This document shows positions 40,643 to 57,060 of a stretch of DNA of 64,000 nucleotides, piece by piece. The notes below the pieces were generated by a model. It did not search any database, had not been told where the DNA came from, and saw only the letters and a list, made by a program, of their open reading frames with translations. The position numbers were made by a program, and so were the translations under genes. Within the stretch, counting starts at the first letter, position 1; every line of letters starts with the position of its first letter. The DNA comes from Emticicia sp. BO119 (GTDB lineage Bacteria > Bacteroidota > Bacteroidia > Cytophagales > Spirosomataceae): NCBI RefSeq assembly GCF_013912375.1, contig NZ_JACETV010000001.1, positions 186,001 through 250,000 of the forward strand, read 5' to 3'.

Positions 40643-41566
40643 ATGGCGACCACAAAAATCGTTTTTCTGATTTTACCAGAAATCCAACTGCTTGATCTGG
40701 CAGGGGCCGATCAGGTATTCTACGAAGCCAAATGCTATGGCTCAGATATTGAAATTGATTATTGTTCATTTGAAAATACTATTAAAACCTCAACTTTACT
40801 ACCTATAGGCAAGGTAAAAGATTTACATGAAGTAAGTTTTAAAGCAGGAGATTATCTGATTATCCCTGGGGCTGAAACTTCTTATATATTATCAGATGAA
40901 TTTAAGGCTAAATATGAAATATTTGATTGGCTCAAAATGGCGTATAGTCAGAAAGTAATATTATGTTCGGTTTGTACAGGTGCATTTGTTTTAGCCTTGG
41001 CAGGATTGCTCAATAATCGGAAATGTACTACACATTGGAAGCGAACAGCACAGCTTCAGGCATTGTTTCCCAAGACAGAAGTGGTGGAGAATATTCTTTT
41101 TATGGAAGATGGAGGAATATTAACAAGTGCTGGTGTAACCTCTGGTATTGATTTGGCCTTGCATATAGTGAGCCAGTTAGAAGATGATTTCTTTTCGTAT
41201 AAAGTAGCGCGTGAATTAGTTATTTATATACGGAGACATGGGAATCAATCTCAGCAGAGTATTTTTCTGCAATATCGTAACCATATACATTCAGGCGTAC
41301 ATAGGGTGCAGGACTGGTTGAAGGAAAATATTCACAGGAAATCTTCTTTACCCGATTTGGCTGATATAGCTTGTATGAGTACACGGAATTTTACAAGAGT
41401 CTTTAAGAAAGAAACAGGGATTTCAGTCAATGATTTTACGACTTTGATCAGGAAAGAAAAAATAAAAGCCTTGATAAAAAAACCGGATATAACCAGAAGT
41501 CAGATTGCCAATCAATGCGGATTGAAAAGCGAAAGACAGATAATAAGATTACTGAAAGAATTATAA
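40643..41566 (+). CDS. GlxA-type transcription regulator (DJ-1/PfpI domain plus AraC domain)
   Basis: A 307-residue protein. Residues about 1-185 follow the DJ-1/PfpI fold (IVFLILPEIQLLDLAGADQVF, LIIPGAE, CSVCTGAFVLALAGLLNNR with the nucleophile-elbow Cys, TTHW). Residues about 215-305 are an AraC helix-turn-helix pair (LPDLADIACMSTRNFTRVFK, SQIANQCGLKSERQIIR). The second helix pair is shortened and the protein ends abruptly after LLKEL, without the usual FRRxxG tail. This family regulates diverse catabolic or stress genes. The DinB gene 68 bases downstream may be a target. Confidence 0.9.
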   Translation: MATTKIVFLILPEIQLLDLAGADQVFYEAKCYGSDIEIDYCSFENTIKTSTLLPIGKVKDLHEVSFKAGDYLIIPGAETSYILSDEFKAKYEIFDWLKMAYSQKVILCSVCTGAFVLALAGLLNNRKCTTHWKRTAQLQALFPKTEVVENILFMEDGGILTSAGVTSGIDLALHIVSQLEDDFFSYKVARELVIYIRRHGNQSQQSIFLQYRNHIHSGVHRVQDWLKENIHRKSSLPDLADIACMSTRNFTRVFKKETGISVNDFTTLIRKEKIKALIKKPDITRSQIANQCGLKSERQIIRLLKEL

Positions 41567-41634
41567 TTACGGAAAAGCTAATTATACTTATGTGTTTGCA
41601 GATATAAACAAGTACTCATCAATTAATCAAGCTA

Positions 41635-42156
41635 ATGAAAAAATCGGACATTTATCCTATGCCAGAGTATTTCGACAGATATATTAATCTGGCGGATGAC
41701 GTGGAATTAAAGAAAGCCTTAGACATCAGTGCAGAAGAATTGAATAATCTACCTGTAGAGCAATGGGAAACCATAGGTGATAAGGTATATGAACCGGGCA
41801 AATGGACCATTAAGGATATTCTGCAACATATGATAGATACCGAACGAATCTTTGCCTATCGGGCCTTGTGTTTTGCAAGAGGCGAAACCTCAAGAATGCC
41901 TTCTTTTGATGAAGAAGAATATGGCAGAAACACCAATGCTAACCAACGTACTTTAGAAAACCTGATAGATGAATTAAAAACTAATCGGGCATCTTTCATA
42001 GCACTTTATAATTCATTTACAGATGAAATGCTATTGAGAACCGGATTGTCTTTTAAAGGAATATATTCTGTATTGGCTATAGGTTTCATTATTGCAGGTC
42101 ATCAACGTTGGCACCTGAATATAATCAGGGAGAGATATGAGGGATTGGTTAACTAA
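41635..42156 (+). CDS. DinB superfamily protein
   Basis: A 173-residue cytoplasmic protein with the four-helix DinB/YfiT fold. The metal-binding histidines expected in the family are seen as ILQHMIDTERIFAYRAL (first His) and IIAGHQRWHLNIIRERY (two His near the C-terminus). The N-terminal PEYFDRYINLADDVELKKAL is typical of Bacteroidota members. The family includes thiol S-transferases such as bacillithiol transferases, but most members lack an assigned substrate. It is downstream of the GlxA-type regulator on the same strand. Confidence 0.9.
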   Translation: MKKSDIYPMPEYFDRYINLADDVELKKALDISAEELNNLPVEQWETIGDKVYEPGKWTIKDILQHMIDTERIFAYRALCFARGETSRMPSFDEEEYGRNTNANQRTLENLIDELKTNRASFIALYNSFTDEMLLRTGLSFKGIYSVLAIGFIIAGHQRWHLNIIRERYEGLVN

Positions 42157-42168
42157 TCCATCCCCTTT

Positions 42169-42598
42169 TCAAAAATAATCTTCCCAAAAATACCAGTCAA
42201 CCATGGGTTCGCTTGTTTGCATACAAAACGAGAGAAGCCTATTTGTTGCTTTATCATCAAAAAACATTTCTTTCGTCAATAAAATGTGTTTTAAAATAAA
42301 TGGTAGAGTATAGCTTTGAAGGGAATATTCTTTCAAAACAATTCATTCCTCTTTCAAGAGATCTAAGAATTTCTCAAAAATACCATTATTAAATTCAACA
42401 CAGCACGGGTTGAATTTTACTTTAACTCCTGCCAATTGAAATTTTTCTACAACCTCAATGACATCAGAATTTAGTTGACCTATTAGCAATTAGAGACATT
42501 CTACAATGGTTTCGTCAAAATCAAGCCAAATACTAAGTGCTTCGATTATTACAGATAGATTTGTTTAAACAATCCACAGCATTTATCACTACTGACAT
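42169..42598 (-). pseudogene. Decayed gene of unknown function
   Basis: One reading frame from 42552 down to a TGA at 42169-42171 spans 128 codons with protein-like composition but carries two internal stops: TAA at 42490-42492 and TGA at 42343-42345. Readable segments include EALSIWLDFDETIVECL, NSDVIEVVEKFQLAGVKVKF, CCVEFNNGIFEKFLDLLKEE and MQTSEPMVDWYFWEDYF. Upstream, an ATG at 42598 opens a different frame (MSVVINAVDCLNKSI) that would join it by a frameshift near 42555. I do not recognise a family. Tandem small genes are an alternative, but the shared frame favours decay of one gene. Confidence 0.5.
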
Positions 42599-42825
42599 TC
42601 TTTCAAAATTCCATACATCTGTAACATTTGTATTATATCATTGTCCTGAATAGCTTTTTCAGCATGAGCTAAATGGATTTTTAATCGTTGGGAAGCAATA
42701 ATCCCAACGTTGTTCGGTAAGGAATGATAAAGATTCAATAAATCTTTTACCCGGCTTATCTCTTTGAGTAGATCATGGGTCAAGTCAGTAGACGACTGAT
42801 TGGAGGTTTGGATAGTAGTTCTCAC
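42589..42825 (-). CDS. Small helical protein, function unknown
   Basis: A 78-residue frame starting with GTG. It is polar and helical (HDLLKEISRVKDLLNLYHSL, AHAEKAIQDNDIIQMLQMYG) with no signal or membrane segment. It is likely coding by composition but no family is recognised. It lies just upstream of the decayed gene, which may once have been its partner. Confidence 0.4.
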   Translation of the reverse strand: MRTTIQTSNQSSTDLTHDLLKEISRVKDLLNLYHSLPNNVGIIASQRLKIHLAHAEKAIQDNDIIQMLQMYGILKECQ

Positions 42826-43513
42826 GCAAAAGTTATTTTTAGTTATATTAAAGGTTTTAGTGGCTTACCATACATAAGTCAGAAGAGTTTGGCTGTAAAT
42901 AAAGGTTTAATTACTCGTTAAAAACAGATTTAAAGCATAAGGTAATGGCTATTTCTGCTTATTTTGGGTCCATATTTCTTGATTTACAGCAAATTTCACT
43001 CCAAAGTGTGCTTAAGTTGCAATTGTTTTTTGGGCTTTAAAAATAGTTTTTCCCTGAGATAAATTTATCGTTTATCATTGCAGGACCAATCGTAATAGTT
43101 GAAATAAATAAGAGATTACAGTTTTGTATTACTTTACAAACATTGAATAATTAATTCAGTAGTATTTAGAGGTGTAAGCCTATTTTTTATTTTCTTATAA
43201 AGAAAAATGTTGTCCTGATTAGCTTTAGTCAGAATAAATCTTAATTTTAATCAGGGGCAAAGCAAATTTTGGTACAATGAAGCAAAATAATTAGCAGGCT
43301 TTTTTATAATATCCTTTAAGTTTTTCGTTATTGCTTGTAATTACAGCATTATGAAATAAAACGTATTAAAACTATTCTTTCCATCTCAATAAATTGGCTG
43401 ACTTTGCTAAAATTCTATATTTTTACGAATCATCGGAAGTTCGCCTCAATTTAAATCAATTGCCTATAGCGGATATTTACGTTTACTAATCAGATTGTCA
43501 TAACCCCTTTTGT
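42826..43513. other. Long AT-rich intergenic region
   Basis: 688 bases before the five-gene envelope operon, with stops in all frames and no RNA gene recognised. A small inverted pair, CCTGATTA near 43214 and TAATCAGG near 43248, is present. The promoter at 43394-43423 is the only regulatory element I can support. Confidence 0.5.
43394..43423 (+). promoter_or_regulatory. Candidate promoter of the five-gene envelope operon
   Basis: TTG at 43394-43396, a 19-base spacer and TATATTTT at 43416-43423 fit the Bacteroidota TTG-N19-TAnnTTTG pattern with one mismatch at the last base. It predicts a leader of about 85 bases before the ATG at 43514. Confidence 0.4.
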
Positions 43514-45991
43514 ATGAAATATATTCTTCCGCTGATAATTAACAGAAGACGAACTAATTATCTCGATTTAAAGAACAGAATATCACAGGAATGTGAGTCT
43601 TTTGTAATAGAACTTCCACAAATGGATAATCCTTTTACAATTCTTTCAATCGATAAAAGCAAATCCATGCAGGCTCTTATCAGCCATGCCAGCGATATTC
43701 CAATTCATCATATTCATTTTTCAGTATCTTTCGATGAAACCGATTCTCGATTCATTATAAGATTATCAACATCAGTTGATTCAGTTATAACGAAAGAAGA
43801 TTCAGAGGAGGAAAACGACTGGAAGAATCCGGTTAAGAATCAGGTAAAAACCCAAAAAAAAGCAACGCAGGAACATAGCACTTTTGTTGCAGGTCAAATA
43901 AAATATACCTGCTTCGATAATGCTTCCGAATTTAATATTATTGGGTCATATATAGACCATGTGCCAGAGGAATCAATAGAAAATGATTGGATCAGATGCC
44001 AGTTTGTGTTTGAATCCAGCCATAAAGAATATCAGAGTGAATTACACTTTTATTTAGCACACGGCAGTTGTTTCCACCATTTCGGTCTTGACTTTGGCTC
44101 TGAGTCTTCACAATTGAAAGTAAGTAGTTATCAGCCAATTGGGCATCATTATCAAAGGAAAACAAAGTCTAAAAACTTGTTTGAAATGGTGAAAGACTTT
44201 AAAGGAATGACTGAAAGCAATCATGATTTTATTCAGCATGAACCGAACACCGATTTCATAAAATCCATATTCTTCCTGAAAAAGAAACTTTCTAACTTCA
44301 GCCTGAAGGATAAATTTATTCACAATGATGATGAATTGAAGTATCTGGTACAGAAAAATGAACTCAACAGTACACTCACCAGTCAGTTTCACCAGCTTTC
44401 AAATCTGAAACTTGCTCATAAACACGGAGAGATTCTTCGGTTTATGGATTTTCAGTCGATTCAGGGTGAAAGAGTGCGTTCCTTGAGTTTAGATGACCTG
44501 AAAAACCAGGCTTATTCAACTATTCTCAAATCTTTCATTGAGGCTACCTTACAGAATGTTATAGATGAAGATAGCCGCAATAACTATATACGTTTCACAA
44601 TTCTGGTTCCGAATATTTATAGTATTCATGAAGTAGCCAACACAAAAGCGGTCATTAACGATATTTTCAACAAGTTGCAACAGACACCCGGTTATGAAGG
44701 GCAAATCAGAGCGTGGGAAGTAGTTACTGTTTCAGAGAGTGATGCAGCTTTCCTGGGGTATTTTGACCAGGGAATGCATCATATAAACCCAAATAAATAT
44801 TATATTATTATCGACTGCGGCAAGGGTACAACAGATTTTTCAATTATTCAGACAAGTAGCAATAATGCCAAAAAAATCAAATCGCTGTATCGGAATGGTT
44901 TTGCAGGAGCAGGTAACCTGATAAGCTATGCTTTTTTTGAAGCCATGATAGACTTTGTTATTAAAAATGCAGATAACCCTGCTGAAACCAAAGCATTCTT
45001 TCAGGCAATAGAAAAGTCGGAAAAAGCACAGATGAATCTTATTTTTGAAAAGTTAGAATCTTTAAAGTTTCAGTATAGTAATAAATCAAACACAACTCAA
45101 CGGGTGGTTGAAAACAACTGGAATAATGCTAAAAGTGGTGATACTACGTTAAAGAACTTAGCCAACAGCGAAATCACGGCTACCGTTCATAATCTTGCAC
45201 TATTGTTAGAAAAAGTTGATGGGTTTTATGACTGGGGTGGCTACATTGAAAATGCTTGTGAAGCTATTACAGCCAATATTATTGAAAATATCAAGGGGGT
45301 TATTAATAATATCGACAAAAACATTTCGTGCGATGGTATATTACTTACGGGTAGGGGTTTCTTGTTCAATCCACTGTTAGAAAAACTGAAAGGAAGGCTC
45401 ACAACCGAACTTGCATTTGCTCCTGATCTGATTAAAATGCCTGATGAAGCGAGCCAGTTAAAGGCCATCTGCTTAGATGGGATATTTACCAATGGATATG
45501 TTATACATCCGGAATTAGTTGGTTTTCCGATTCACATTTCTACCAAAAAACAAACTCAGGTCTCAGATGGCAGCAAACCAAAGTTCCCGGCATTTTTTGA
45601 TTTTATTCTGAGATTGGCTAACATGCAGGATAACTACGACGAGACCAAAAACAGCTATCGTATAGACAAGCTCGATTCATTGAAATTTCTGATTGGTAAT
45701 ACCCTTTATACAGTAGCAGACAATATATTTTATGATAATAAATGGGTTGAGTCAGTAGATCTGATTTTTACAAAAGATGGCTTTTTTGCCCGGAACATCG
45801 ATAAAGACAACAAGATAATAGGATATTCAAACCTTATTCAGAACTCAGCTATTGATAATGTTACACTACAATATCTGATACCCTCTTTGTTTCCGGCTAA
45901 AATTGATACCGATTATATTCAGGCTTTAAAGCAGGAAGTACCGGAGCCCGACGAAGAATTGGCGACACTGATAAGCCTTTTGCCTGATTAA
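43514..45991 (+). CDS. Actin/Hsp70-fold (ASKHA) ATPase of unknown family
   Basis: An 825-residue soluble protein without a signal peptide. Three nucleotide-binding motifs of the actin/Hsp70/FtsA superfamily are visible. The phosphate-1 loop is FGLDFGSESSQL with D193. The phosphate-2 loop is IIIDCGKGTTDFSII with D434. The adenosine loop is ILLTGRGFLFNPLLEKL around G613. The first 180 residues and the last 150 are extra domains with no recognised motif. Phosphate-1 normally lies at the N-terminus, so this protein has an unusual leading domain (YILPLIINRRRT at its start). The nearest thing I know is the poorly studied SrfB-like group of large Hsp70-fold proteins, but I cannot confirm that. It starts the operon with a SEDS-PBP fusion, suggesting a cytoskeletal or switch ATPase on the inner face of the membrane. 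Confidence 0.75.
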   Translation: MKYILPLIINRRRTNYLDLKNRISQECESFVIELPQMDNPFTILSIDKSKSMQALISHASDIPIHHIHFSVSFDETDSRFIIRLSTSVDSVITKEDSEEENDWKNPVKNQVKTQKKATQEHSTFVAGQIKYTCFDNASEFNIIGSYIDHVPEESIENDWIRCQFVFESSHKEYQSELHFYLAHGSCFHHFGLDFGSESSQLKVSSYQPIGHHYQRKTKSKNLFEMVKDFKGMTESNHDFIQHEPNTDFIKSIFFLKKKLSNFSLKDKFIHNDDELKYLVQKNELNSTLTSQFHQLSNLKLAHKHGEILRFMDFQSIQGERVRSLSLDDLKNQAYSTILKSFIEATLQNVIDEDSRNNYIRFTILVPNIYSIHEVANTKAVINDIFNKLQQTPGYEGQIRAWEVVTVSESDAAFLGYFDQGMHHINPNKYYIIIDCGKGTTDFSIIQTSSNNAKKIKSLYRNGFAGAGNLISYAFFEAMIDFVIKNADNPAETKAFFQAIEKSEKAQMNLIFEKLESLKFQYSNKSNTTQRVVENNWNNAKSGDTTLKNLANSEITATVHNLALLLEKVDGFYDWGGYIENACEAITANIIENIKGVINNIDKNISCDGILLTGRGFLFNPLLEKLKGRLTTELAFAPDLIKMPDEASQLKAICLDGIFTNGYVIHPELVGFPIHISTKKQTQVSDGSKPKFPAFFDFILRLANMQDNYDETKNSYRIDKLDSLKFLIGNTLYTVADNIFYDNKWVESVDLIFTKDGFFARNIDKDNKIIGYSNLIQNSAIDNVTLQYLIPSLFPAKIDTDYIQALKQEVPEPDEELATLISLLPD

Positions 45992-46025
45992 TTTTCAGTA
46001 CTCAAAACCGTAATAGCTTACGCAT

Positions 46026-47192
46026 ATGTTAAAAAACATTGTAATAATCATATTGTCTTTTGTTCCATTATTAAGTAAGGCTGAAGTCGACACACTTAAA
46101 ATTACAAGTGTTGAAACTGATTTTGTACCGAGAACGGCTTTTTTTGAAATACAGTTGAATCCGAATCAGGGCAAACTCCAGAACGGCACCTTGAAGATTT
46201 CTACCAAAGATGATAGTATCGGCATTGTATTAAATAGTAAAGTAATGGCTAATGATACTATCTTTATCATGCAGGATTCAAGCCAGAATGCCCTTAATAA
46301 AATTTACAGCCTTCTGGGTTGTCAGGAATCTGACTTGCAGCAAAAGTATTATTTAGCAGATCCTCGTTATGGTACTGTTGTTTTCAATCACCTGATTAAC
46401 AGAGTATTTAATTTGCCAAAACATCAGCTGACACTTGTCATAACCCCTCAATTTTCTGTTACAGAAGTTACCACACTTGAAACTAACCAGCTTGCCTGGA
46501 TATTGGTCGGGGTATTAGCCGTTAGTGTACTCGTTTTAATCATTTTATATGCTATGGAAAAATCTAAAAAACCTGCCAGCGAAACCAGACTGGTGAAAGA
46601 AAAAATCAAACGTTTTAAGGCTGAATTGATAGAAGAAAGACAAAATAAAGAAATAACAGATGCCGAGGTAATAGATATACTTTGCCAACGCTACTACGAT
46701 CAGATAAGCCTTAGTAAAGACTACACTAAACTAAGTGCTGAATTAGAAAACACCAGGCAGAATTACCAGAATTATATAGCACAAATTGGTACTGAAACTG
46801 AAGAGGAGAAACAGTATTTCAGGCTCATTTCAGAAGCATATATCAAACCATTTGTACGTCATTTTAAAGACGATACACCATATCCGGCGGATGAAGAAAC
46901 CCAACAAAAACTTATTGGAAATCTGATTCCACTGGCTTTCCATTTTATGAGTTTTGTGAAACTCAAAAACAAAGAGGGTATAGAATACGATAAAATGAAT
47001 ATGCAACAATTGTTGAATCCAGCGTTTTTCTCAAGTCTGTTAAAGAAAGTTGATTTTTCTGCCAATGTTACCAATACAGATAATAAGCTGGTATTGCATA
47101 TTATTGAACTACTAAAACAATACTGTGTATCAGAACTGGAAAAAGTAAATATCAACGGATATATTATCAAAAACGAGAAACCGAATGCCTAA
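46026..47192 (+). CDS. Single-pass membrane protein with cytoplasmic helical domain, function unknown
   Basis: A 388-residue protein with a signal peptide (about 1-19), a beta-rich exterior domain (20-155), one membrane helix at about 157-177 and a charged helical cytoplasmic domain (about 180-388) beginning EKIKRFKAELIEERQNKEI. No family is recognised. The topology would let it link an exterior component to the cytoplasmic ATPase encoded 34 bases upstream. Its last eight bases overlap the start of the giant fusion gene, so the two are translationally coupled. Confidence 0.7.
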   Translation: MLKNIVIIILSFVPLLSKAEVDTLKITSVETDFVPRTAFFEIQLNPNQGKLQNGTLKISTKDDSIGIVLNSKVMANDTIFIMQDSSQNALNKIYSLLGCQESDLQQKYYLADPRYGTVVFNHLINRVFNLPKHQLTLVITPQFSVTEVTTLETNQLAWILVGVLAVSVLVLIILYAMEKSKKPASETRLVKEKIKRFKAELIEERQNKEITDAEVIDILCQRYYDQISLSKDYTKLSAELENTRQNYQNYIAQIGTETEEEKQYFRLISEAYIKPFVRHFKDDTPYPADEETQQKLIGNLIPLAFHFMSFVKLKNKEGIEYDKMNMQQLLNPAFFSSLLKKVDFSANVTNTDNKLVLHIIELLKQYCVSELEKVNINGYIIKNEKPNA

Positions 47193-50100
47193 GATAAAAT
47201 CATTGATATTTTTGCTACTGGGTATCGGACTGGTATTGACATTATATTTTTTTGTTAATCTGTTTTCGCTATTTTTTTTTAGTGTAATTGTTTTTTGCTC
47301 ACTTTGTTTTTTAGGGGTTATTATTGCTGAAAAAAATATTGATGGAGAAAGTTTTAGGAAAAAATTTCCGAAACTTGAAACAGCTTCACTGAATGTGAAA
47401 CGACTACAGGCTTATAGGTTTACAACTACTCTGTTGGGCATTAGCTTATTGACAATCATTTATCTGATCTCGGTATTTGTCTTGAAGAAATTTCAACAAC
47501 CTGATGAAGTAAAGCCTTATTTTAACAATGCCGACCATCATGCCCTTACTAATACTGGTGTAGCATTTAAGCATAATTTAGTGCTTTCAACTAACGAAAA
47601 ACAGAGTAGTTCAAACGGCTTGTGGAGTAATGAGAGTGGCAAATTCACAGTCAGACAAAATAGCCAGGGGCAGTTTGTTTTTAGTTTCGACAAATACTTA
47701 GAGCCAGTTTTTAGCCGAGCTACCAGCGAGGAAGATTTCAGGCCTATAAATGCTGTTTTCCCGACACCAGTCCAAAACAGTTTTGTTATAAGTAATGATA
47801 GTATAAGTCTTAATTGCAAAAGTATTGAGACCAAAGATGAGGGTTTCTTATTCAAAAAGAAATTCAGAAAAATCTATCATATCCACATCAGATGTAGCGC
47901 AAAGAGTATTTTGAGGCAATTGAATATTCCAGATACCTATGAGGATGAAATTGAAGTAAAAGACCGACCAATTGAAAAGGGCAAAAGCTTTTATTCATTA
48001 CTGATTGAAAATGATGATTTTGTTTCGCAAAAAGTCCAGTCAAAACAGGTATTGGAGCGTATTCTCCAAACCACCGGAGAATTGTACTTTTTAGCCAGTC
48101 CGAATCCAGGAGGTAAGGAGAAAAATATTACTATCTTCCCTACTAATGATTTCTTTAAGAATAGATTCACATTGAATATTGATGGGAGCCGTAATACTCC
48201 TGAATTGCAATCGACTACAAGCATTGAGGCTGGAAATAGGTTCTTTGTTGGATTTTACAATTCCCGGAAACAGTATTTTTTCAATGCACTTGATAAAAGC
48301 CTCTATCCAAAAAGCTCTAATACGGCCGTTCTGAATTTTGATTTTCCACAATACTTCGTTCTTTCAGCCCAAAAGGATAGAGCTGAAATAGGTACGAAAC
48401 AAATCCGTTTTTTAGACAATCATTATACTCAGTTGCTGAATTCTTCACTAAAAGAAGGTTTTTTGTTTCATGAAGACCTGCGCAATGCACGCTCGAATGT
48501 GTTTTCAGGGACCATGATTTATACCCTGAATCCAACAGGAGTAGAGTTTTCAGGAGAAGTAACAGATAACTTTAAAAATGACCAGCAAAGCGAAATTTTC
48601 AGCAAATACTTCTCTCTTCATTCGCAAAATGCTGAGTATGAGTGGCTTTTTCAGATTCGTGATTTTTCAGACAACGGTTTTTCTTTGAATCATAATCTGA
48701 TTTACCTTTCTGTTTTATTTTTGCTATTTGTTTTTACGCTTTTATTCAATGCTGATTATGGCTTAGAGCGGATTGAAGCAATTATTTATGCGGTAGTCTA
48801 TGCTTTGCTTACGTATCGTTTTATATTACTCTGGCGTGTAGCCACTTTCCCACCACTCGAAAACATCAATAAATATGAATTAGAGACCACTCTCATCCGT
48901 TTCGACTTCTCATTTATTAAATATACGCTCTCTCTGCCACTAACTTTTCTACTTCCGGTAATATTCATTATACTATTGAACATTTACCGTTTTCAGAAAG
49001 AAACCATTATCCATTTGGTAGCGAAAGTACAGAATTCGCATCAGAAATACCTTTATTATCACCTCAATGTATTAGGTATTTGTGCCGTTGTATTAATGGT
49101 TACAGGCTATGACCTCATCTATCGTATAGGCGGGGTTTTTATTCCTCTCATCGCTTATTTATTTTTTTCGGCAAAAGTTAATCAACTATATCAGCAACAA
49201 ACTTTTGTTCCCAACCAAACTCGTGCAAAGCTTCTCAATTATCTGCATCAGTTTTATTATTACCTTACTGTAAATAATGAGTTTTATCTGACTGTTGCTA
49301 CATTAGTCTTCTTTGCCGTTTTTGACAGAGGCTTTGCAGTGCTTTTTCTCCTGTTTTTATTATTGAAAAATGTGTTTACCAATTTCTTACGTAAACCATA
49401 TACAACCAAAGCTGGAAATCGCTTTGCTATGTTCTGGAGACCTGATAATTATTGGATTTATGGTATTCTTTCGTTTGTCATTTATATTTTGTTTATAGGG
49501 TATAAGCCGCTCTTTCATAAAATACTCATTCACAGAGATATTCTGCTCATAATTGTCATTGTATTGGTATTAACTTATGTGTATTTGGCACAGAACAAAT
49601 ATAAAAGCAGATTCCTGATAGGTGGTGTAGTGTTAATAGCTTTACTTTTAATACCATTTACCAAGGTTAGATTAGATGCTTTTGTTGATAACGAATTGAA
49701 GAATGTAGTGCATCGTGCATCGCTTATTTATCAACCTGTCGACGAGTTAATCAGTGAAAATGATTATGATTCTTTCAGAGAACACAAAATTGTAGAAACT
49801 GCAGAGGGCCAATGGTTTATTAATAATTATCTGAACAAGACACGCAATGAATCAAAACGTATTGATTTCAAGCCCCATTTTAACAGAGGGGTAAACTATT
49901 CTACCCAAACAAGAGACGTGGTTGTCCCCCGATATATTATTGCAGAGTTTGGCAACTGGATAATCATCTGGATATTAATTGTGTTGGCCATACCAATGAT
50001 TTTTTACCTGATAGCCTATCAACTATATCAGAAGGGAAAAAATGGTGAAGTAAATTTTGCTCCGTCTTCTTATAATGGCAGTATTGCCCTGATTTTAGTT

Positions 50101-52707
50101 TTTACTTTAGGCTTCTTTGTCTGGCTGGCATCTACCAATCGGTTTGTGTTTTTCGGGCAGGATTTTCCATTTCTGAGTCTTACAAGTAAGTTAAGCTTAT
50201 TATTACCACTTACTTTATTCTTTATTCCGCTGCTCAATCAACCTGTTGAACGAAAAATAAAGATTATTTCACCTACTTTTGATTTTTCGAGAATGGGTAT
50301 CTTTTTTATTATTATTGCCATTTTCCTTTTATTAAGCGGGCGTTCAAATAATCTACAGGAAACCAACTTTCAGATTTCGTTAAAGAAAACGGAAGAAATG
50401 ATTAATGACAAACTAAATACACTATTGAATAATATCCAGGATACTGTTAAAATTGATAATCGGGCAGTTTTTAATCAGACGAACAGAATCCCACAGGATT
50501 TGTCTAAAATCCTTTCAATTCTGTTAAATTCTAAAGATTATAGCAATTTATACGAACAATCAGATAAATATTCTCAAAGTATTCTGGATATCCTTAAAGA
50601 GAATCCTGCTACGGCCTTTAAACAGGATAGCCCTATTTATCTTAGATTTGATGATGACCGTTATCAATCAGTTTATAACAAGCATTTGTATCTTGAATTA
50701 CCTCCCTATGAAGATCGTATTGTCTGGAAAGGGAATCTGTACCAGGAAAGTCTGGATTCATTGCAATATCCTGTTCTAAGAATCTATAATCAACCGGTAA
50801 CAGGTAAAGGACTGCCTTATTTTACAGGTTCACAGGGTGGTACTTTAAAAGTGGCAGTTTTACCTGATTCATGGTTTAGCAATACAGCAGAGCCGTTAGT
50901 ATTGATGAATCTTGAAAATACAGTAAAGCATACTAAGGCAACTATTGATATAGTATCAAGCCGCAATGAAAAAATACTGAATCAGCAGGTAAGTGGGTTT
51001 GTAAATAAGCTGAGTTTAGATGAAATTGCCAAAGTAAGTGAAGGTAAAAACCATTTTCTGGTATCGTATGCCAATGATAATAATTATGCCTTTATGGCGA
51101 GTTATTGGATAAATGGTAAACAGCGAATGGTGTATCCAATGGCAGATAAACTATTCTGGGTATATCATTATTCCCATGCGCTGAAAACAGCCTATACTGC
51201 CGATAGTCTTTTGCTTAATGATGCCACTATAACACTCGATTTTAAGCTGAATAAAGAAGTGGGGGATACCATAGAGAGGGCATTCAGCAACAAGTTTAAT
51301 AAAACACCGAACTTCAAATTTGCTGTAATGGCGGCAGATGGAGATGGGAAAATACGTCTGATGCAGGATTTTGTAAAAAATCGCACCATGATTGACCCAA
51401 ACAATGCCTTAGCCATAGACAAAATGAATCAGCGACATTTCTTTTTTAGCAATAATAAGAATGAAAGGGATCAGTGGGGCAATACTAACTTATTGCATCT
51501 TGCTTATGGGCCCGGGTCTTCAGTTAAACCCCTGGTCTTTGCCTCTATAGCTTCAAGATTGAATGCAGGTTGGGAGAATCTGATTTTACAGGCTTCAGAT
51601 CAGTTTGAAATAAAACCCGGCAACGCCAAAGCTTCTGTCGGGCAATATGCCGGATACAAATTACCAGAACGAAAAGGTTGGATAGATGAACATGGCGAGC
51701 ATTTTGGTAATATTAATGCAGTTGAATATCTTCGGCAGTCGAGTAATTTTTATCATTCTGTGCTGATGTTTTTAGGGTCTTACCCCAGAAGCGATTTTAA
51801 ATTGAATGAGAAATATCAGATTCAAAATTTACTGTCCCGAAAATTGAACGACCCTGAGAATCAATTTCCTGCCTTAGAAGTAGCAGGAGTACCGTATCGA
51901 CTAAAATCTCTGAAGGAAAAAGGCTGGCCGAGAAGCTCACGTGATGAAACTACCTATTTTGGTAATGAAAAATCTTTATTGGCCGAAGGATTAGATAAAA
52001 ACCTGAACTTAATTGTTGAGGATGTTGATAAGACAGATTTCAATATCAAAGACAGAGGTAGAGTAAATTATGCCGATACAATGGTATATCACACACTTTA
52101 TAAACAGCAATCAGGAGGCTTTTTATGGAGTTTCCCTGAGCAATCATTTTTTATTCAGGCCGAACGTAAACATACGAATAAACTTACCAACTTTTTTAAC
52201 GGGTTGAAAAATCCGACGCTTGGTGGTACACCCTATAGTATTACACCCCTGAAAATGACAGAGATGTACGGCAAGTTATTTAGCCAGAATAGTGAGTATC
52301 AGTTATACCTGACAAAAAGAGAAAAGCAGCAGTCTGCCTGGAAAGTAGATAGCATTACATGGAAAAATGGGTTTAATGATTTCTTACGTGATAATGTCAT
52401 AAAAGGTATGGAGCAGGTAATGATTAATGGGACTGCTGCGGCTATGTTTAGCGGAAGTAATGTTTATAAAGGCTATTATTTCTACGGAAAAACAGGAACA
52501 ATTAAAGAAGGTGAACAGAACGACTCCAAACGATTGGCCTTAGTGATTGCAAAAAATAATCTGTTAGAAACGCCACTAAAGAAAAATAAATTCTATACGG
52601 TGTATTTTACAGCCAACGAAGCCAATAATCAGGAATGGAGTACTTATCGAATTGTCATCGACCGGATTTTAGCTTCTGAGTCGTTTAAAAATTATATGAA
52701 AGAATGA
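47185..52707 (+). CDS. Predicted SEDS (FtsW/RodA-like) - class B PBP fusion
   Basis: A 1840-residue membrane protein. Residues 1-100 hold three helices and 105-500 a beta-rich exterior domain of unknown family. About twelve helices follow at 505-1010. Their end has diverged SEDS landmarks: AEGQWF (873-878) resembling the GGWFG loop, a long exterior loop with D911 (TRD) followed by IIAEFG, matching the catalytic HTDFIF...EELG segment, and GQDFPFLS (991-998) matching GIPLPFIS. Three helices follow the loop, as in SEDS proteins. Residues about 1060-1840 form a transpeptidase with all three penicillin-binding motifs: SxxK as S1445-S-V-K1448 (GPGSSVKPL), SxN as S1519-S-N1521 and K1769-T-G1771. The transpeptidase call is strong. 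The SEDS call is inference from topology and short motifs. SEDS and bPBP proteins work as a pair in wall synthesis, so a fusion makes functional sense. The gene overlaps both neighbours. Confidence 0.78.
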   Translation: MPKIKSLIFLLLGIGLVLTLYFFVNLFSLFFFSVIVFCSLCFLGVIIAEKNIDGESFRKKFPKLETASLNVKRLQAYRFTTTLLGISLLTIIYLISVFVLKKFQQPDEVKPYFNNADHHALTNTGVAFKHNLVLSTNEKQSSSNGLWSNESGKFTVRQNSQGQFVFSFDKYLEPVFSRATSEEDFRPINAVFPTPVQNSFVISNDSISLNCKSIETKDEGFLFKKKFRKIYHIHIRCSAKSILRQLNIPDTYEDEIEVKDRPIEKGKSFYSLLIENDDFVSQKVQSKQVLERILQTTGELYFLASPNPGGKEKNITIFPTNDFFKNRFTLNIDGSRNTPELQSTTSIEAGNRFFVGFYNSRKQYFFNALDKSLYPKSSNTAVLNFDFPQYFVLSAQKDRAEIGTKQIRFLDNHYTQLLNSSLKEGFLFHEDLRNARSNVFSGTMIYTLNPTGVEFSGEVTDNFKNDQQSEIFSKYFSLHSQNAEYEWLFQIRDFSDNGFSLNHNLIYLSVLFLLFVFTLLFNADYGLERIEAIIYAVVYALLTYRFILLWRVATFPPLENINKYELETTLIRFDFSFIKYTLSLPLTFLLPVIFIILLNIYRFQKETIIHLVAKVQNSHQKYLYYHLNVLGICAVVLMVTGYDLIYRIGGVFIPLIAYLFFSAKVNQLYQQQTFVPNQTRAKLLNYLHQFYYYLTVNNEFYLTVATLVFFAVFDRGFAVLFLLFLLLKNVFTNFLRKPYTTKAGNRFAMFWRPDNYWIYGILSFVIYILFIGYKPLFHKILIHRDILLIIVIVLVLTYVYLAQNKYKSRFLIGGVVLIALLLIPFTKVRLDAFVDNELKNVVHRASLIYQPVDELISENDYDSFREHKIVETAEGQWFINNYLNKTRNESKRIDFKPHFNRGVNYSTQTRDVVVPRYIIAEFGNWIIIWILIVLAIPMIFYLIAYQLYQKGKNGEVNFAPSSYNGSIALILVFTLGFFVWLASTNRFVFFGQDFPFLSLTSKLSLLLPLTLFFIPLLNQPVERKIKIISPTFDFSRMGIFFIIIAIFLLLSGRSNNLQETNFQISLKKTEEMINDKLNTLLNNIQDTVKIDNRAVFNQTNRIPQDLSKILSILLNSKDYSNLYEQSDKYSQSILDILKENPATAFKQDSPIYLRFDDDRYQSVYNKHLYLELPPYEDRIVWKGNLYQESLDSLQYPVLRIYNQPVTGKGLPYFTGSQGGTLKVAVLPDSWFSNTAEPLVLMNLENTVKHTKATIDIVSSRNEKILNQQVSGFVNKLSLDEIAKVSEGKNHFLVSYANDNNYAFMASYWINGKQRMVYPMADKLFWVYHYSHALKTAYTADSLLLNDATITLDFKLNKEVGDTIERAFSNKFNKTPNFKFAVMAADGDGKIRLMQDFVKNRTMIDPNNALAIDKMNQRHFFFSNNKNERDQWGNTNLLHLAYGPGSSVKPLVFASIASRLNAGWENLILQASDQFEIKPGNAKASVGQYAGYKLPERKGWIDEHGEHFGNINAVEYLRQSSNFYHSVLMFLGSYPRSDFKLNEKYQIQNLLSRKLNDPENQFPALEVAGVPYRLKSLKEKGWPRSSRDETTYFGNEKSLLAEGLDKNLNLIVEDVDKTDFNIKDRGRVNYADTMVYHTLYKQQSGGFLWSFPEQSFFIQAERKHTNKLTNFFNGLKNPTLGGTPYSITPLKMTEMYGKLFSQNSEYQLYLTKREKQQSAWKVDSITWKNGFNDFLRDNVIKGMEQVMINGTAAAMFSGSNVYKGYYFYGKTGTIKEGEQNDSKRLALVIAKNNLLETPLKKNKFYTVYFTANEANNQEWSTYRIVIDRILASESFKNYMKE

Positions 52708-53150
52708 AAAATACTTCAAAAATCTATATTTTTCTTGGGCTTTTAGTTTTAGTGGGTACTATTTTATTCTGGTTTTTCGGACATAAACCAACAGCTTTTG
52801 AATCGGTAAAAAATACTGTCACAGAAGAATTATCAGATAGAAATATAGTTAGTATTCAGGTGGATAGTCTGACGAACATCGTTCATCAGGTATATGGAAA
52901 TGATGCCTCTATTTCGCTATCTGATTCTGAAAATTATGTGGTAAAAATACAGAATCAAGGCAATGAAATCAGTAATTTCTATAATGATAACCCTCGTTTA
53001 TTAGAAACTCAGGATAAGCGTTTTTCAATTAAACGTACAGGCAACAAGGTAGTCGCCAATTTTAAAATTGAAAGCATTAATCAACAAAAGTATGCTTTTG
53101 TACCCACTGATGTCGTTTATAAACTATCTGAAATGGCTTATAATAAATAG
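52704..53150 (+). CDS. Small membrane-anchored protein, function unknown
   Basis: A 148-residue protein with one N-terminal membrane helix (about residues 6-25, YIFLGLLVLVGTILFWFF) and an exterior domain of about 115 residues without recognised motifs. Its ATG overlaps the stop of the fusion gene as ATGA, so translation is coupled. By position it may be an accessory of the SEDS-PBP protein, as small bitopic proteins are in known divisome and elongasome complexes. That role is inferred only. Confidence 0.65.
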   Translation: MKNTSKIYIFLGLLVLVGTILFWFFGHKPTAFESVKNTVTEELSDRNIVSIQVDSLTNIVHQVYGNDASISLSDSENYVVKIQNQGNEISNFYNDNPRLLETQDKRFSIKRTGNKVVANFKIESINQQKYAFVPTDVVYKLSEMAYNK

Positions 53151-53158
53151 TATGTTTT

Positions 53159-54460
53159 ATGACTAAGATCGAACACGCATATTTTATTGACTATCTCAGC
53201 TTTTTAGGTAAAAGATACCCGAAACTGGTACTTTCGCCGGAGAAATTAGCTAAGCTAAAGCAATTGAACGATCAGCAGCTTAATCAATATCTTCAGTTAT
53301 TGTATGAGAAATTTGAGCTCAACGGAGCATATGAGGAAATGAGTTTTCTGAATACTATTAATAGGATAAATGAAACTGTTGAAATAATTGAGGTAGAAGC
53401 AGAAGAACTGCCCATTGATGAATCTGATAAGGTAGAAGAAAAAGCTATAACGCAACAGCCCGTTACTATTGCAATAGAGCCAGAACCTACAAAACAGGAA
53501 AGCTCTACTGTGATCAAAGAAACGGCTTTGCCCACAAAAACTGTTTTGCCCTATATTCCTGAAAAACCAGTGGTAAATCCAGCACCTGTTAAGTCTGCAG
53601 GTAATACCGTTCAGCCCAAGCCTCCTGTAAATAAAGAACAAATAGTTAAAACACGTTATAAATATAATTTCTGGCGCATTGGTCTGGTCGTTTTTTTTGT
53701 ATTAGCATCGGTTTATACGGTTTACAAATTTATTGCTTATCAGAAATTAGGATTTGTTTATGTGTTAACTGATGAATTATTAGTGAGAACATCGTCTGAT
53801 AAAAATGGGAAAGTATTGGGTAGCATGAATCTGTTCGGAAAAGCCAAAGGTAGAGATAATAAAGAAGTGCTGACTTTTGCAGAACTGAAACTCTATTCTA
53901 ACGAAAAGCAAGGCGCATTCTATAAAGTTATTATGAGCGATTTCCCTTTTATAAGTTACCTGTTTAATTTAGATGATATGGGGTATGTATATGCCAAATA
54001 TGTGACTACAGATAAAAAAGAACAAGAGACTTATCAGAAGATTTTCAGACCAATTAAAAATGATTATTATGAACTAAAAAGCCTGGAATTTTCTTACCGG
54101 GCTATTATTGTTAATGCTATTACTACTCAGCCTGCCCTGATGGGGCTTGTTTTAAAAGAATCTTGTGACTCTCCATCAATGAATATACGGAATGCTCCTT
54201 TACGAATAGGTCAATATCAGAATAAAGATAAAACTGTTTTTTTTGTATTGGTACAATTATCTGACGGCAACTATTATAGCATTGAAGGAGATGGCTTCTA
54301 TAATGCATTACCTGCTACTCCTATTTATTTAGGTGATGATCTGCTGAAAATGGAAGGTAAATTTCAACAGAAGGGAGATTCTTTTGTCTGGCAAAGTTGC
54401 GATAAAACTATCACTGCCCGCTGCAATAGAGGTGAGTTTGATTATTTTGTGGTTGAATAG
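53159..54460 (+). CDS. Single-pass membrane protein with SH3-like exterior domain
   Basis: A 433-residue protein. Residues 1-70 are helical and cytoplasmic (DYLSFLGKRYPKLVLSPEKL). Residues about 75-165 form an acidic then Pro-rich linker with repeated Lys-Pro and Val-Pro words. One membrane helix spans about 173-193. The exterior part begins GFVYVLTDELLVRTSSDKNG, an opening typical of bacterial SH3 domains, followed by a second beta domain (340-433) with two cysteines. Bacterial SH3 domains often bind peptidoglycan. It closes the operon eight bases after the previous gene. The layout resembles an adaptor joining the inner ATPase to the wall. Confidence 0.65.
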   Translation: MTKIEHAYFIDYLSFLGKRYPKLVLSPEKLAKLKQLNDQQLNQYLQLLYEKFELNGAYEEMSFLNTINRINETVEIIEVEAEELPIDESDKVEEKAITQQPVTIAIEPEPTKQESSTVIKETALPTKTVLPYIPEKPVVNPAPVKSAGNTVQPKPPVNKEQIVKTRYKYNFWRIGLVVFFVLASVYTVYKFIAYQKLGFVYVLTDELLVRTSSDKNGKVLGSMNLFGKAKGRDNKEVLTFAELKLYSNEKQGAFYKVIMSDFPFISYLFNLDDMGYVYAKYVTTDKKEQETYQKIFRPIKNDYYELKSLEFSYRAIIVNAITTQPALMGLVLKESCDSPSMNIRNAPLRIGQYQNKDKTVFFVLVQLSDGNYYSIEGDGFYNALPATPIYLGDDLLKMEGKFQQKGDSFVWQSCDKTITARCNRGEFDYFVVE

Positions 54461-54485
54461 GGAGATTATAAGGGGTAAATACAGT

Positions 54486-54537
54486 AAAGTAAAGAAGTCT
54501 GTTTATAAACTAAATTATAAACAGACTTCTTTACTTT
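54486..54537. terminator. Bidirectional terminator, 23-bp perfect hairpin
   Basis: The left arm is 54486-54508 and the right arm 54515-54537, exact reverse complements of 23 bases around a six-base ACTAAA loop. The right end runs into TTTT and the left end is preceded by A-rich DNA. It lies between two convergent genes and includes the final codons and stop of the NRPS gene. It should end both the five-gene operon and the NRPS operon. Confidence 0.85.
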
Positions 54538-57058
54538 TAAGAATATGATCTACTGTAGTAAGCACTACGGCTGCATTGTCTGTATTCAGCATATCTATGT
54601 GTTTACCTTTTAAGGCAACGGGTTTTAGCTTTTTAAAATAAGGTTTCCAATGCTCCCCATTTCTGTCAAGCATAGAGTTATCACAGCCAAAATAAAATAC
54701 AATATTATCAATGTAAGTAGGAGTAAGATTCAGGTGCCATGACCATAGAATTACGCTTCGATAATCTTTTCTGAGTACCTTCTCAAACCAATGAATTATT
54801 TTTTTTGAAAAGGTAGAATAATTATAGAGGTAATTAATACTATTGTTTAATACATTTCCTCGCCTGATGAAGTTGAAGGAACGCTCCAGGAAGTTTTCGT
54901 TGAGCGGTTTAATTTTGTATTTCTCATTTCCTTCAACAATCCCTAAAAAACTGCAATGATTAAGTGGTATGTTTGATATAATATGATTCATAATTATCGC
55001 TCCTGAGCATACACCCAGAAAACCTACATCAGGGCTATTATATGTCGGAATCTGATTAATTATAAATGATGTTACATAGTCTAAATTTCTATTTTCTGGA
55101 ATAGTATCACTTATTCGCGGATAATTAATTATTCTGACGGTGGCATAGTCTGATAAATTTTTTAAAAATACACGTGTATTCTCTGTGATGCCTAATATTG
55201 ACGGGAAAACATAAATAATTTGATTCTGGTTTATTTTCTCCTGTATGTTCAGCGTTTTTAAGTAATCGTAAATTTCATGAGGTGTCATAGCACCGTGTAT
55301 CCAGTCGGTAGTAAGTGCCGTTCCCAGATCAGACTCTAATTGTACCAGAAAATTAACAGCATTTAAAGAGTCTCCACCTGCATCCTTCCATCTCATATTC
55401 TCCTCAAATGATTTTTCGTCTAAAAATTTGCACCATGTTCTGCGCAGTGTTGTTAGTAGGAAATCCTCCTTTTTATTTGATGGTTCAAGATTTTCGAATG
55501 GTAAGCCTGCATATTTTTCGGCTAATACTTTAAGAGATTTATTATCGTTTTTAAAATTATGTAAAAGAGGTATGTCAGATAGTTGAATACACCTTTGTGG
55601 AATCATATAGTCAGGAAGACGCTCAGCCATCCAGTTTTTTAACTTTATTTCAGGTATTCCTTTTTCACTTGTGAAAAATGCAAATAATGAATTGTGCTTA
55701 TCAGAGGTGTGCAAAACAACTCCACAGCGTTTAACAGAAGGATAATTCATTAGTATCGCTTCAATTTCGCCTAATTCAATTCTATACCCATTTACTTTTA
55801 CCTGATTGTCTTTCCTTCCAATAAATTCTAATAGGCCATCATGATTAATTCTACCTAAATCTCCTGTTCTATAAGTGCGTAAATCGGTAATTTCGGAGTT
55901 TATTGAAAAAGACTCTGCTGTTTGCTTCAGACTTTTCCAGTATCCGATTGAAATATACTGGCTGCGCACGATTATCTCTCCCGTTTCTCCATCAGAAACC
56001 TGCCTGTTTTCTTCATTCAATAAAACCATCTCTCTATCTTCTACTGCGTGTCCTAAGGGGATTAATTCCTGATTAATAATAGTAGTATGATTGATAAACC
56101 ATTGACGGTAAATAGTAGCGATTTCTGTAGCACCAATACCAACATAAAGAAAACTATCTGATGGGAAAAACAATTTATATAAATCGACATCAGTATTATA
56201 AAGCCTATCTCCTGCCAGATAAATGAGCCTCACTGATACAAAATCAATTTTATCAGTACTTAATTTTAAGAATGTTCTGAAAATGTTAGGTATTGAATGA
56301 TAGATTGTAATTTTTTCTTGTCTGATAAATTCAGCTATATTATATAAACCTGTTGTTTTCAGGTTTTTGATTACCAGTGTAGCACCATTCAGTAATGCCC
56401 CATATATATCCCTGATTGCACCATTTACACTTGGTGAGTATAGCAGCGTTAACCGGTCGCTTTCATTCAAATGCGTAGAGTTAGTGTATTGCATAATATC
56501 ATGCAGCAGATTTCTCTGGTTTTGGTAAACACCTTTCGGAGAGCCTGTTGAGCCCGAAGTATAAATAATATAAGCTATATCGTCGGAAGAGGGGTTGAAA
56601 TCAGAAGCCTTATTCTCGCAGCCAGCCAAATTCTCAATATTAATAATAGTAAGTTCATCTGAAAACACTGGCAAATCACTATTAGTTATCACAGACCTTA
56701 TTCCTGATTGTTCAATGATGAGTTGATTACGAGCAATTGGCAAGTCAATATCTAAAGGTACATAAGGGCAACCTGCGGCTAAGGCCGCCATCATGGCAAC
56801 AGGAAAAAATACATCATTAGGTAAAGCAATCCCAATCGGTTCACCCAAGGAATGTGATGCTCTAATAGTATTGGCTATATTGATTACCCAATTATAGGTT
56901 TCCTGATAGGTCAGTTGCTTTGATCCGCACTTAATGGCTATTTGTGCAGGATTTCTGCCTACAACATCGCTGAAAATATTGAAAACGGGAATATCGAGCC
57001 ATGCTTTTTCAAATTTTCTAAAATTAATATCTACCGGGCCTTGAAAATCTAACTGCAT
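54515..57058 (-). CDS. Single-module NRPS: adenylation, carrier and thioesterase domains
   Basis: An 847-residue protein. Residues about 10-510 are an adenylation domain with AYIIYTSGSTGSPKGV, YRTGDLGRINHDG, the GRKDNQVKVNGYRIELGEIE hinge and a late NDNKSLK lysine. Residues about 530-605 are a carrier domain with the phosphopantetheine serine S564 in DAGGDSLNAV. Residues about 620-847 resemble a thioesterase, with LGVCSGAII around S685 as a changed GxSxG elbow and a late GKHIDML histidine. No condensation domain is present, so it can activate and release one acyl unit or form a simple dimer or ester, but not a peptide. The substrate code was not read. It starts two bases after the URO-D-like gene's stop. 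Confidence 0.88.
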   Translation of the reverse strand: MQLDFQGPVDINFRKFEKAWLDIPVFNIFSDVVGRNPAQIAIKCGSKQLTYQETYNWVINIANTIRASHSLGEPIGIALPNDVFFPVAMMAALAAGCPYVPLDIDLPIARNQLIIEQSGIRSVITNSDLPVFSDELTIINIENLAGCENKASDFNPSSDDIAYIIYTSGSTGSPKGVYQNQRNLLHDIMQYTNSTHLNESDRLTLLYSPSVNGAIRDIYGALLNGATLVIKNLKTTGLYNIAEFIRQEKITIYHSIPNIFRTFLKLSTDKIDFVSVRLIYLAGDRLYNTDVDLYKLFFPSDSFLYVGIGATEIATIYRQWFINHTTIINQELIPLGHAVEDREMVLLNEENRQVSDGETGEIIVRSQYISIGYWKSLKQTAESFSINSEITDLRTYRTGDLGRINHDGLLEFIGRKDNQVKVNGYRIELGEIEAILMNYPSVKRCGVVLHTSDKHNSLFAFFTSEKGIPEIKLKNWMAERLPDYMIPQRCIQLSDIPLLHNFKNDNKSLKVLAEKYAGLPFENLEPSNKKEDFLLTTLRRTWCKFLDEKSFEENMRWKDAGGDSLNAVNFLVQLESDLGTALTTDWIHGAMTPHEIYDYLKTLNIQEKINQNQIIYVFPSILGITENTRVFLKNLSDYATVRIINYPRISDTIPENRNLDYVTSFIINQIPTYNSPDVGFLGVCSGAIIMNHIISNIPLNHCSFLGIVEGNEKYKIKPLNENFLERSFNFIRRGNVLNNSINYLYNYSTFSKKIIHWFEKVLRKDYRSVILWSWHLNLTPTYIDNIVFYFGCDNSMLDRNGEHWKPYFKKLKPVALKGKHIDMLNTDNAAVVLTTVDHILKSKEVCL

Positions 57059-57060
57059 TT

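Follow-up and report, generated by a model that had tools for sequence, protein, structure and literature searches.

A five-gene operon of Emticicia encoding a predicted Hsp70-like ATPase and a SEDS-transpeptidase fusion, a candidate auxiliary peptidoglycan synthase complex

The SEDS synthases known so far take their direction from MreB or FtsZ, together with the partners of these proteins. Here we describe an operon of five genes, A to E, in Emticicia sp. BO119 (genome of 6.57 Mb), in which a SEDS-like synthase is encoded beside an ATPase of a different kind. The operon lies on a stretch of 64,000 nucleotides (nt) of contig NZ_JACETV010000001.1 (assembly GCF_013912375.1, positions 186,001 to 250,000 of the forward strand), which is called the window and to which all coordinates refer unless a locus is named. 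Engineered fusions of RodA and the penicillin-binding protein (PBP) PBP2, which form one chain as protein C of this operon does, are functional according to a section of PMC6207328. Passages of PMC10449877 also deal with an engineered RodA-PBP2 fusion, state that natural SEDS-PBP fusions exist and identify D262 as the catalytic residue of RodA. NTP-dependent conflict systems, as portrayed in PMC7159879 (Kaur et al. 2020), have a modular core and variable caspase or other effectors, and some contain Hsp70 components. We regard the operon as a self-contained, auxiliary and conditional peptidoglycan synthase complex controlled by an ATPase of the ASKHA fold, with a probability of roughly two in three. 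The analysis shows the composition of the operon, the predicted folds of its products, their invariant active-site residues and the co-occurrence of A and C; enzymatic activity, ATP coupling through B and conditional use are inferred. The operon comprises the following genes:

43514..45991, + strand: gene A, 825 amino acids, predicted ATPase of the ASKHA fold (Hsp70/actin/MreB)
46026..47192, + strand: gene B, 388 amino acids, signal peptide and one transmembrane segment
47185..52707, + strand: gene C, 1840 amino acids, predicted SEDS-transpeptidase fusion
52704..53150, + strand: gene D, 148 amino acids, N-terminally anchored, probably periplasmic
53159..54460, + strand: gene E, 433 amino acids, one transmembrane segment, lineage-specific accessory

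An earlier annotation made from the letters of the window alone, the sequence-only reading, had placed five open reading frames with overlaps or very short gaps at 43514-54460, and coordinates and spacing agreed with this: the gap between A and B is 34 nt, B and C overlap by 8 nt, C and D by 4 nt, and D and E are 8 nt apart. All five genes were under purifying selection in comparison with two genus mates (dN 0.08-0.18, dS >1.3 or saturated). Hydropathy indicated no transmembrane segment in A, a signal peptide and one such segment in B, 13 peaks in C, an N-terminal anchor in D and one segment in E. Scans of the five proteins against Pfam, NCBIfam and PADLOC gave nothing over cut-off except the transpeptidase of C, which was also the only one to pass a curated Pfam cut-off. 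Relatives were collected by a pattern scan of a species-genome collection, which yielded 66 loci (67 with the window, numbered with the prefix L) and would miss divergent A genes lacking the patterns.

Protein C combines in one chain a predicted polymerase of the SEDS fold and a penicillin-binding transpeptidase. N-terminal transmembrane segments are followed by a beta-rich domain, the SEDS-fold core and the transpeptidase:

47512..48669, + strand: residues 110-495, beta-rich domain between transmembrane segments, probably extracytoplasmic; no fold matched
48682..50340, + strand: residues 500-1052, predicted SEDS-fold glycosyltransferase core, with the codon of D911 at 49915-49917
50368..52704, + strand: residues 1062-1840, penicillin-binding transpeptidase
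Motif codons of C: SxxK (S1445) from 51517, SxN (S1519) from 51739, KTGT (K1769) from 52489

The model of residues 1-1075 had a pLDDT of 82.9 and a pTM of 0.84. Realignment of this model with VIA gave Z 14.8 to RodA 8tj3_B (321 of 341 residues, model residues 520-1022), Z 14.3 to RodA 6pl5_A and Z 12.6 to FtsW 8p1u_A, with 316-326 residues aligned across the RodA/FtsW rows; the next row reached 8.2 over 98 residues. The rows for the beta-rich domain were weak and uninformative. When residues 500-1062 were compared by hhalign with 11 RodA/FtsW proteins of the order, the match had E 9.6e-6 and a probability of 82.6, as against E 0.69 for MreB and E 0.33 for DnaK. In this alignment D911 was paired with the Asp of SEDS periplasmic loop 4 and the segment GQDFPFLSL with the SEDS motif GQ-LP-S. 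Each of these E-values refers to a single pair. Three lines of evidence carry the SEDS assignment: realignment by VIA, profile comparison and motifs.

The C-terminal part of C matched PF00905 with 23.0 bits (cut-off 22.1), whereas the Armatimonadota and split C relatives reached 18.4 and 11.8 bits and so did not pass. Five PBPs of the host (L143, L144, L148-L150; L145-L147 were excluded) were compared with the transpeptidase of C, and the PBP2-like protein fitted best (hhalign E 6.1e-7, all three motifs aligned, versus 2.3e-4 to 4e-3 for the others). D911, E921, R844, S1445, K1448, S1519 and K1769 were unchanged in 61/61 long C relatives; N1521 and T1770/G1771/T1772 were kept in 60 of the 61, N1521 being T in L091 and TGT being lost in L046. 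The search selected loci through A and so introduced no bias into these counts for C. The end of the L046 gene (4149-9125, metagenome contig) looks frame-shifted past the KTG lysine. C is encoded by two adjacent genes in L089 (13298-18655) and L090 (13300-18639). The break falls within the SEDS region, around residues 612-646, and both loci retain D911 and E921 as well as the motifs of the transpeptidase. The Armatimonadota C did not match SEDS proteins when compared as a single sequence, and no usable hit came from PDB sequence searches, whether with A, with C, with the C protein of L091 or with the A3/A4 profiles. Fold match, profile match and transpeptidase motifs agree with the SEDS-PBP-like fusion proposed in the sequence-only reading.

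Protein A is, by its model, a predicted Hsp70/MreB-fold ATPase, nearer to DnaK than to MreB by profile. It consists of a beta-rich N-terminal part (residues ~1-180), a nucleotide-binding part (~187-660) and a C-terminal beta-rich part. The model (pLDDT 81.8, pTM 0.84) had DnaK as its best Foldseek match (E 2.2e-12), and VIA gave Z 20.1 to DnaK and Z 18.4 to MreB (4czl, root mean square deviation 3.7 over 310 residues). Some of the alignments with DnaK continued to model residue 778, into the substrate-binding beta domain. Profiles of five rows each gave E 4.7e-5 to DnaK versus 2.2e-3 to MreB. Residues of the three ASKHA motifs (D193, G195, D434, G436, G438, T439, D441, G613) were present in 65/65 relatives, of which only G613, in the third motif, is a bias-free count, the A loci having been found by patterns over the first two motifs. 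The actin/Hsp70-fold ATPase of the earlier annotation was thus borne out by model, Foldseek and VIA, but A is not MreB by family model (12 bits against PF06723, cut-off 27), and its profile match to DnaK is the nearer one. Neither Pfam nor NCBIfam listed an Hsp70 family model for A at E 1, and the 43 scanned A relatives gave weak matches to Actin (3/43, best 0.002), DUF3731 (one, 3.4e-4) and MreB (one, 0.0072). SrfB, considered as a candidate identity for A, was rejected, as no SrfB model was listed at E 1.

The 66 scanned loci belonged mostly to Chitinophagaceae (23) and Prevotellaceae (10) and otherwise to other Bacteroidota; Fibrobacterota and Armatimonadota each contributed a single locus, and a further one was unassigned. 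Co-occurrence across Bacteroidota had been set beforehand as the refutation test of the sequence-only reading, and it was supported. C was found inside the fetched stretch in 64 of the 67 A loci, and the remaining three genomes carry C elsewhere: L039 is a contig of 3.6 kb, whereas in L074 and L084 no C lies near A; in these two genomes the distant C still precedes D and the same set of genes that lies downstream in L083. A and C shared one operon run at 62 loci; at least one gene lay between them in 60 of these, and a transmembrane peak was present in the intervening gene or genes in 58 of the 60. By BLAST cluster, B types 5, 9 and 11 were present in 29/67 loci, D types 6, 8 and 12 in 28/67 and E in 16/67. 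We concluded that A, B and C, frequently joined by D, make up the general unit, and that E is lineage-specific and lies outside it. Many Chitinophagaceae loci have the order upstream 275-amino-acid gene, A, B-like gene, C. The upstream protein was rejected as a relative of D (E 5.8e-4, no better than the 3e-4 of unrelated pairs).

Without selection on A, the 7 genomes with A among 58 relatives, the genome of the window included, were also the 7 with C, and strong matches to both were found in the same 2 of 395 genomes of the phylum. Short weak matches to A or C (E 1e-5 to 1e-3), which were excluded from the phylum counts, occurred in six and two further genomes and did not coincide. C without A was not seen among these 58 and 395 genomes, the numbers being small. 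An origin from a mobile element was rejected, as no relatives were found in viral contigs, plasmids or phages (one of the viral-contig searches covered close relatives only).

Protein B has a periplasmic part, a transmembrane segment at about residues 156-174 and a cytoplasmic helical domain by hydropathy, as expected for the bitopic adaptor proposed earlier, and it is a candidate link between A and C. By profile, the cytoplasmic domain is common to BLAST clusters 5, 9, 11, 71 and 66 and is related across orders; cluster 5 matched the other B clusters with E 1.4e-7 to 3.8e-10, where cross-family pairs reached 3e-4. A SLATT-like hint in B (NCBIfam E 8.4e-5, 22.1 bits versus a cut-off of 60) spans the transmembrane segment and the adjoining helix and was set aside for this reason. 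The D clusters 6, 8 and 12 are likewise related by profile across orders (E 2.3e-7 to 4.4e-12), and a D relative comes after C even in the two loci with a split operon. The likeness to MreC/RodZ in the earlier annotation was not supported for B and D; 36 of the 57 B/D proteins were scanned and none matched MreC or RodZ. Protein E has a cytoplasmic helical N-domain, one transmembrane segment and a periplasmic part, in which one segment is weakly SH3-like. Its description as a membrane protein stands, but the SH3-like exterior is weak: SH3_3 was matched by one of 22 E-type proteins (E 0.0041), and E of the window had no match of any kind. SnoaL_2 was matched in 2/22 E-type proteins. In L029-L040 (Taibaiella/Edaphocola group) the second gene after D is a second E-type paralogue, with N-domain and transmembrane segment as in E and a different C-terminal domain.

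In the host, MreB adjoins MreC on contig 12, RodA adjoins a transpeptidase gene on contig 1, which is therefore called PBP2-like, and a second SEDS gene lies on contig 26. Altogether nine transpeptidase matches were found, C included. Since the host has its own MreB, MreC, RodA and PBP2-like gene, the operon is an extra, and from this together with its patchy distribution we infer conditional use.

In the mechanism that we propose, the SEDS core of C would polymerise lipid II, and the strand would be cross-linked by the transpeptidase domain of the same chain. The cytoplasmic ATPase A would sense or drive a conformational change, which the bitopic B may pass through the membrane to C, coupling ATP to synthesis. 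D, and in this lineage E, would act in the periplasm, probably as activator and as wall sensor or anchor. The complex may be used under envelope stress, in repair or in a special growth mode; elongation is no more likely than a role in stress or repair. Wall-related accessories support a synthase role: a protein with a CW_7 wall-binding repeat is encoded at L065 and has relatives at L057 and L086, and a GH25 muramidase is encoded at L080, with a relative in L079. The distances of A and of C, which correlated with r 0.97 over 59 loci (0/999 permutations), also speak for the proposed complex.

Several observations weigh against an ATPase-controlled peptidoglycan synthase. The E-value of the SEDS profile match (9.6e-6) is good without being overwhelming, since the N-terminal part of C gave 0.005 versus SEDS although it had been included as a control without relation to it, and pairs of unrelated families reached 3e-4. 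Foldseek with the whole model of C gave no significant PDB match (FtsW at rank 34, probability 0.20). Helical bundles can reach Z scores of about 13 in VIA by arrangement alone, so that the FtsW row by itself is insufficient. The SEDS family model PF01098 was not listed for C at E 1, and 0/44 scanned C relatives matched it (0.01). Shared ancestry is partly behind the correlation of the A and C distances. L072 and L083 have operons without a gene between A and C. Finally, caspase, HEPN and TerD neighbours, given below, fit a role in stress or conflict better than one in growth.

We weighed four alternatives, which overlap in part with the preferred reading, so that their probabilities and its own do not add up to one. 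The first, which we consider unlikely, is an envelope-surveillance or conflict module: its core would detect an invader or damage to the wall and give the signal for an effector (caspase, HEPN RNase or TerD proteins) to act, peptidoglycan synthesis being the repair or the sensed activity. The patchy distribution fits such a module, as do caspase-type genes in or next to the A-B-C-D run at 4/67 loci, all Cytophagales (cluster 10), and the HEPN_Swt1 domains, each with an R-x4-H motif, that form the N-terminus of 3 of the 43 scanned A proteins:

L043, 12245-13828: caspase-type gene
L044, 12772-15048: caspase-type gene
L045, 19297-20850: caspase-type gene, called by BLAST cluster only (Pfam for the other three)
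L052, 8808-10094: caspase-type gene
L044, 9089-12061: HEPN-A fusion
L048, 9080-12046: HEPN-A fusion
L052, 4520-7513: HEPN-A fusion

TerD-type genes at three loci (clusters 21 and 22; Pfam at L065, relatives at L057 and L086), papain and FGE-sulfatase domains at L011/L043 and WD40 and sigma-70 at L045 also point in this direction. Against this, most loci, the window included, have no such effector in the operon run, and the accessories are limited to few lineages; WG repeats, papain, WD40, sigma-70, AAA and M50B genes occur at single loci or in small groups. The GHG His motif was present in each of the four caspase loci, but the pattern for the Cys motif found none. The only PADLOC match was a weak one, SLATT-like, in B (E 0.0021), and the lack of phage, plasmid or viral-contig relatives argues in the same sense. 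Upstream of A, proteins with an N-terminal DxSxS (vWA MIDAS-like by motif only) are encoded at L079 (3764-6181), L080 (7014-9455) and L091 (7827-9419), those of L080 and L091 having no Pfam match, and a LytTR-type gene lies directly before A in L089/L090 (Pfam at L090).

The second alternative follows the sequence-only reading, which had likened the operon to an independent mini-elongasome: A would form MreB-like filaments that steer C for cell shape or a special morphology. The MreB fold match of A, the best fit of the transpeptidase to the PBP2-like protein among the host PBPs and the highest SEDS Z score to RodA are in line with this, but the profile of A is nearer to DnaK, A has large N- and C-terminal beta parts, and none of the five window proteins matched an MreC, MreD or RodZ family. 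The host has its own MreB, MreC and RodA and the operon is patchy, which speaks against this role, and we consider it rather improbable. Very doubtful is the third alternative, that A is a dedicated Hsp70-like chaperone which folds or inserts the giant C. Hsp70 is the best fold match, with alignment into the substrate-binding domain, and every examined genome with A also has C; yet the bitopic gene usually between A and C and the anchored D often after C suggest transmembrane signalling, and no DnaJ or GrpE was found among the operon proteins scanned (part of all). That C makes a polymer other than peptidoglycan, as a GT-C_B ligase or polymerase related to WaaL (VIA Z 6.6 over 333 residues), is scarcely credible, as RodA/FtsW fitted far better (12.6-14.8) and the chain ends in a transpeptidase with kept motifs.

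Signals flanking the operon gave a mixed picture:

54486..54537, strand not specified: strong hairpin between the operon and the convergent gene

The hairpin 3' of E is very strong (23 pairs, -29 kcal/mol, z -8.3), in partial agreement with the terminator proposed earlier. On the + strand, however, UUAAGAAUA stands after it in place of a U run, and the terminator scan met its pattern (54489-54534) on the - strand only, the side of the convergent gene. The hairpin may therefore serve both the operon and the convergent gene or the convergent gene alone. The candidate promoter of the sequence-only reading found no support, with 51 sigma-70-like sites in the region versus 44.8 expected and 8 TAnnTTTG sites in 42014-47488 versus 8.57 expected. 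Rfam gave no match within 41500-55500. Upstream of the operon, histidine-kinase-like and LytTR-like response-regulator genes were read from the sequence at 38815-40561 (+ strand). The convergent gene (54515-58014, - strand, 847 amino acids) we take to be of the nonribosomal peptide synthetase type, with adenylation, carrier and thioesterase-like parts, and it is presumably followed by a uroporphyrinogen-decarboxylase-like gene.

If the operon is indeed an ATPase-controlled peptidoglycan synthase, it would add an Hsp70/actin-type mode of control to those known for wall synthesis. Controller and polymerase would then be encoded side by side, in a gene set that is conserved across Bacteroidota and was met once each in Fibrobacterota and Armatimonadota. 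C would possibly be a further class of beta-lactam-reactive enzyme, and a link between wall state and caspase-type effectors is possible. A bolder formulation, which we hold to be conceivable but probably wrong, is an ATP-gated synthase in which an Hsp70-like ATPase, and not MreB or FtsZ, controls the one-chain SEDS-transpeptidase through a transmembrane adaptor as a switch for envelope integrity, coupled in some lineages to a suicidal effector, either a caspase or a HEPN RNase.

A narrow search of the open-licence literature, which does not imply absence in print, gave no account of a SEDS-PBP fusion with an Hsp70-type ATPase, and the words 'penicillin' and 'transpeptidase' were not found in the main text of PMC7159879 or in PMC8195603, a second paper on conflict systems. 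The gene set recalls NTP-dependent conflict systems in its modular core and, at a few loci but not in the window, in variable caspase and other effectors; its core includes a peptidoglycan synthase. Protein A shares with DnaK the fold of the nucleotide-binding domain and the phosphate motifs, and differs from Hsp70 proteins in matching no Hsp70 family model, in its N-terminal beta domain and in being tied to a membrane synthase. Like the Rod complex, the operon combines an actin-superfamily ATPase, bitopic proteins and a SEDS/transpeptidase pair; unlike it, the ATPase is nearer to Hsp70, B and D do not match MreC or RodZ, SEDS and PBP parts are fused, and the system is patchy and additional. 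C corresponds to RodA-PBP2, FtsW-FtsI and SpoVE-SpoVD in its predicted SEDS fold, the periplasmic-loop Asp and the SxxK/SxN/KTG transpeptidase, and is set apart from RodA-PBP2 by its 1840 amino acids, extra N-terminal transmembrane segments, beta-rich domain, lack of a PF01098 match and constant partner A. The parts are of known kinds, and their combination appears to be new and the gene set undescribed.

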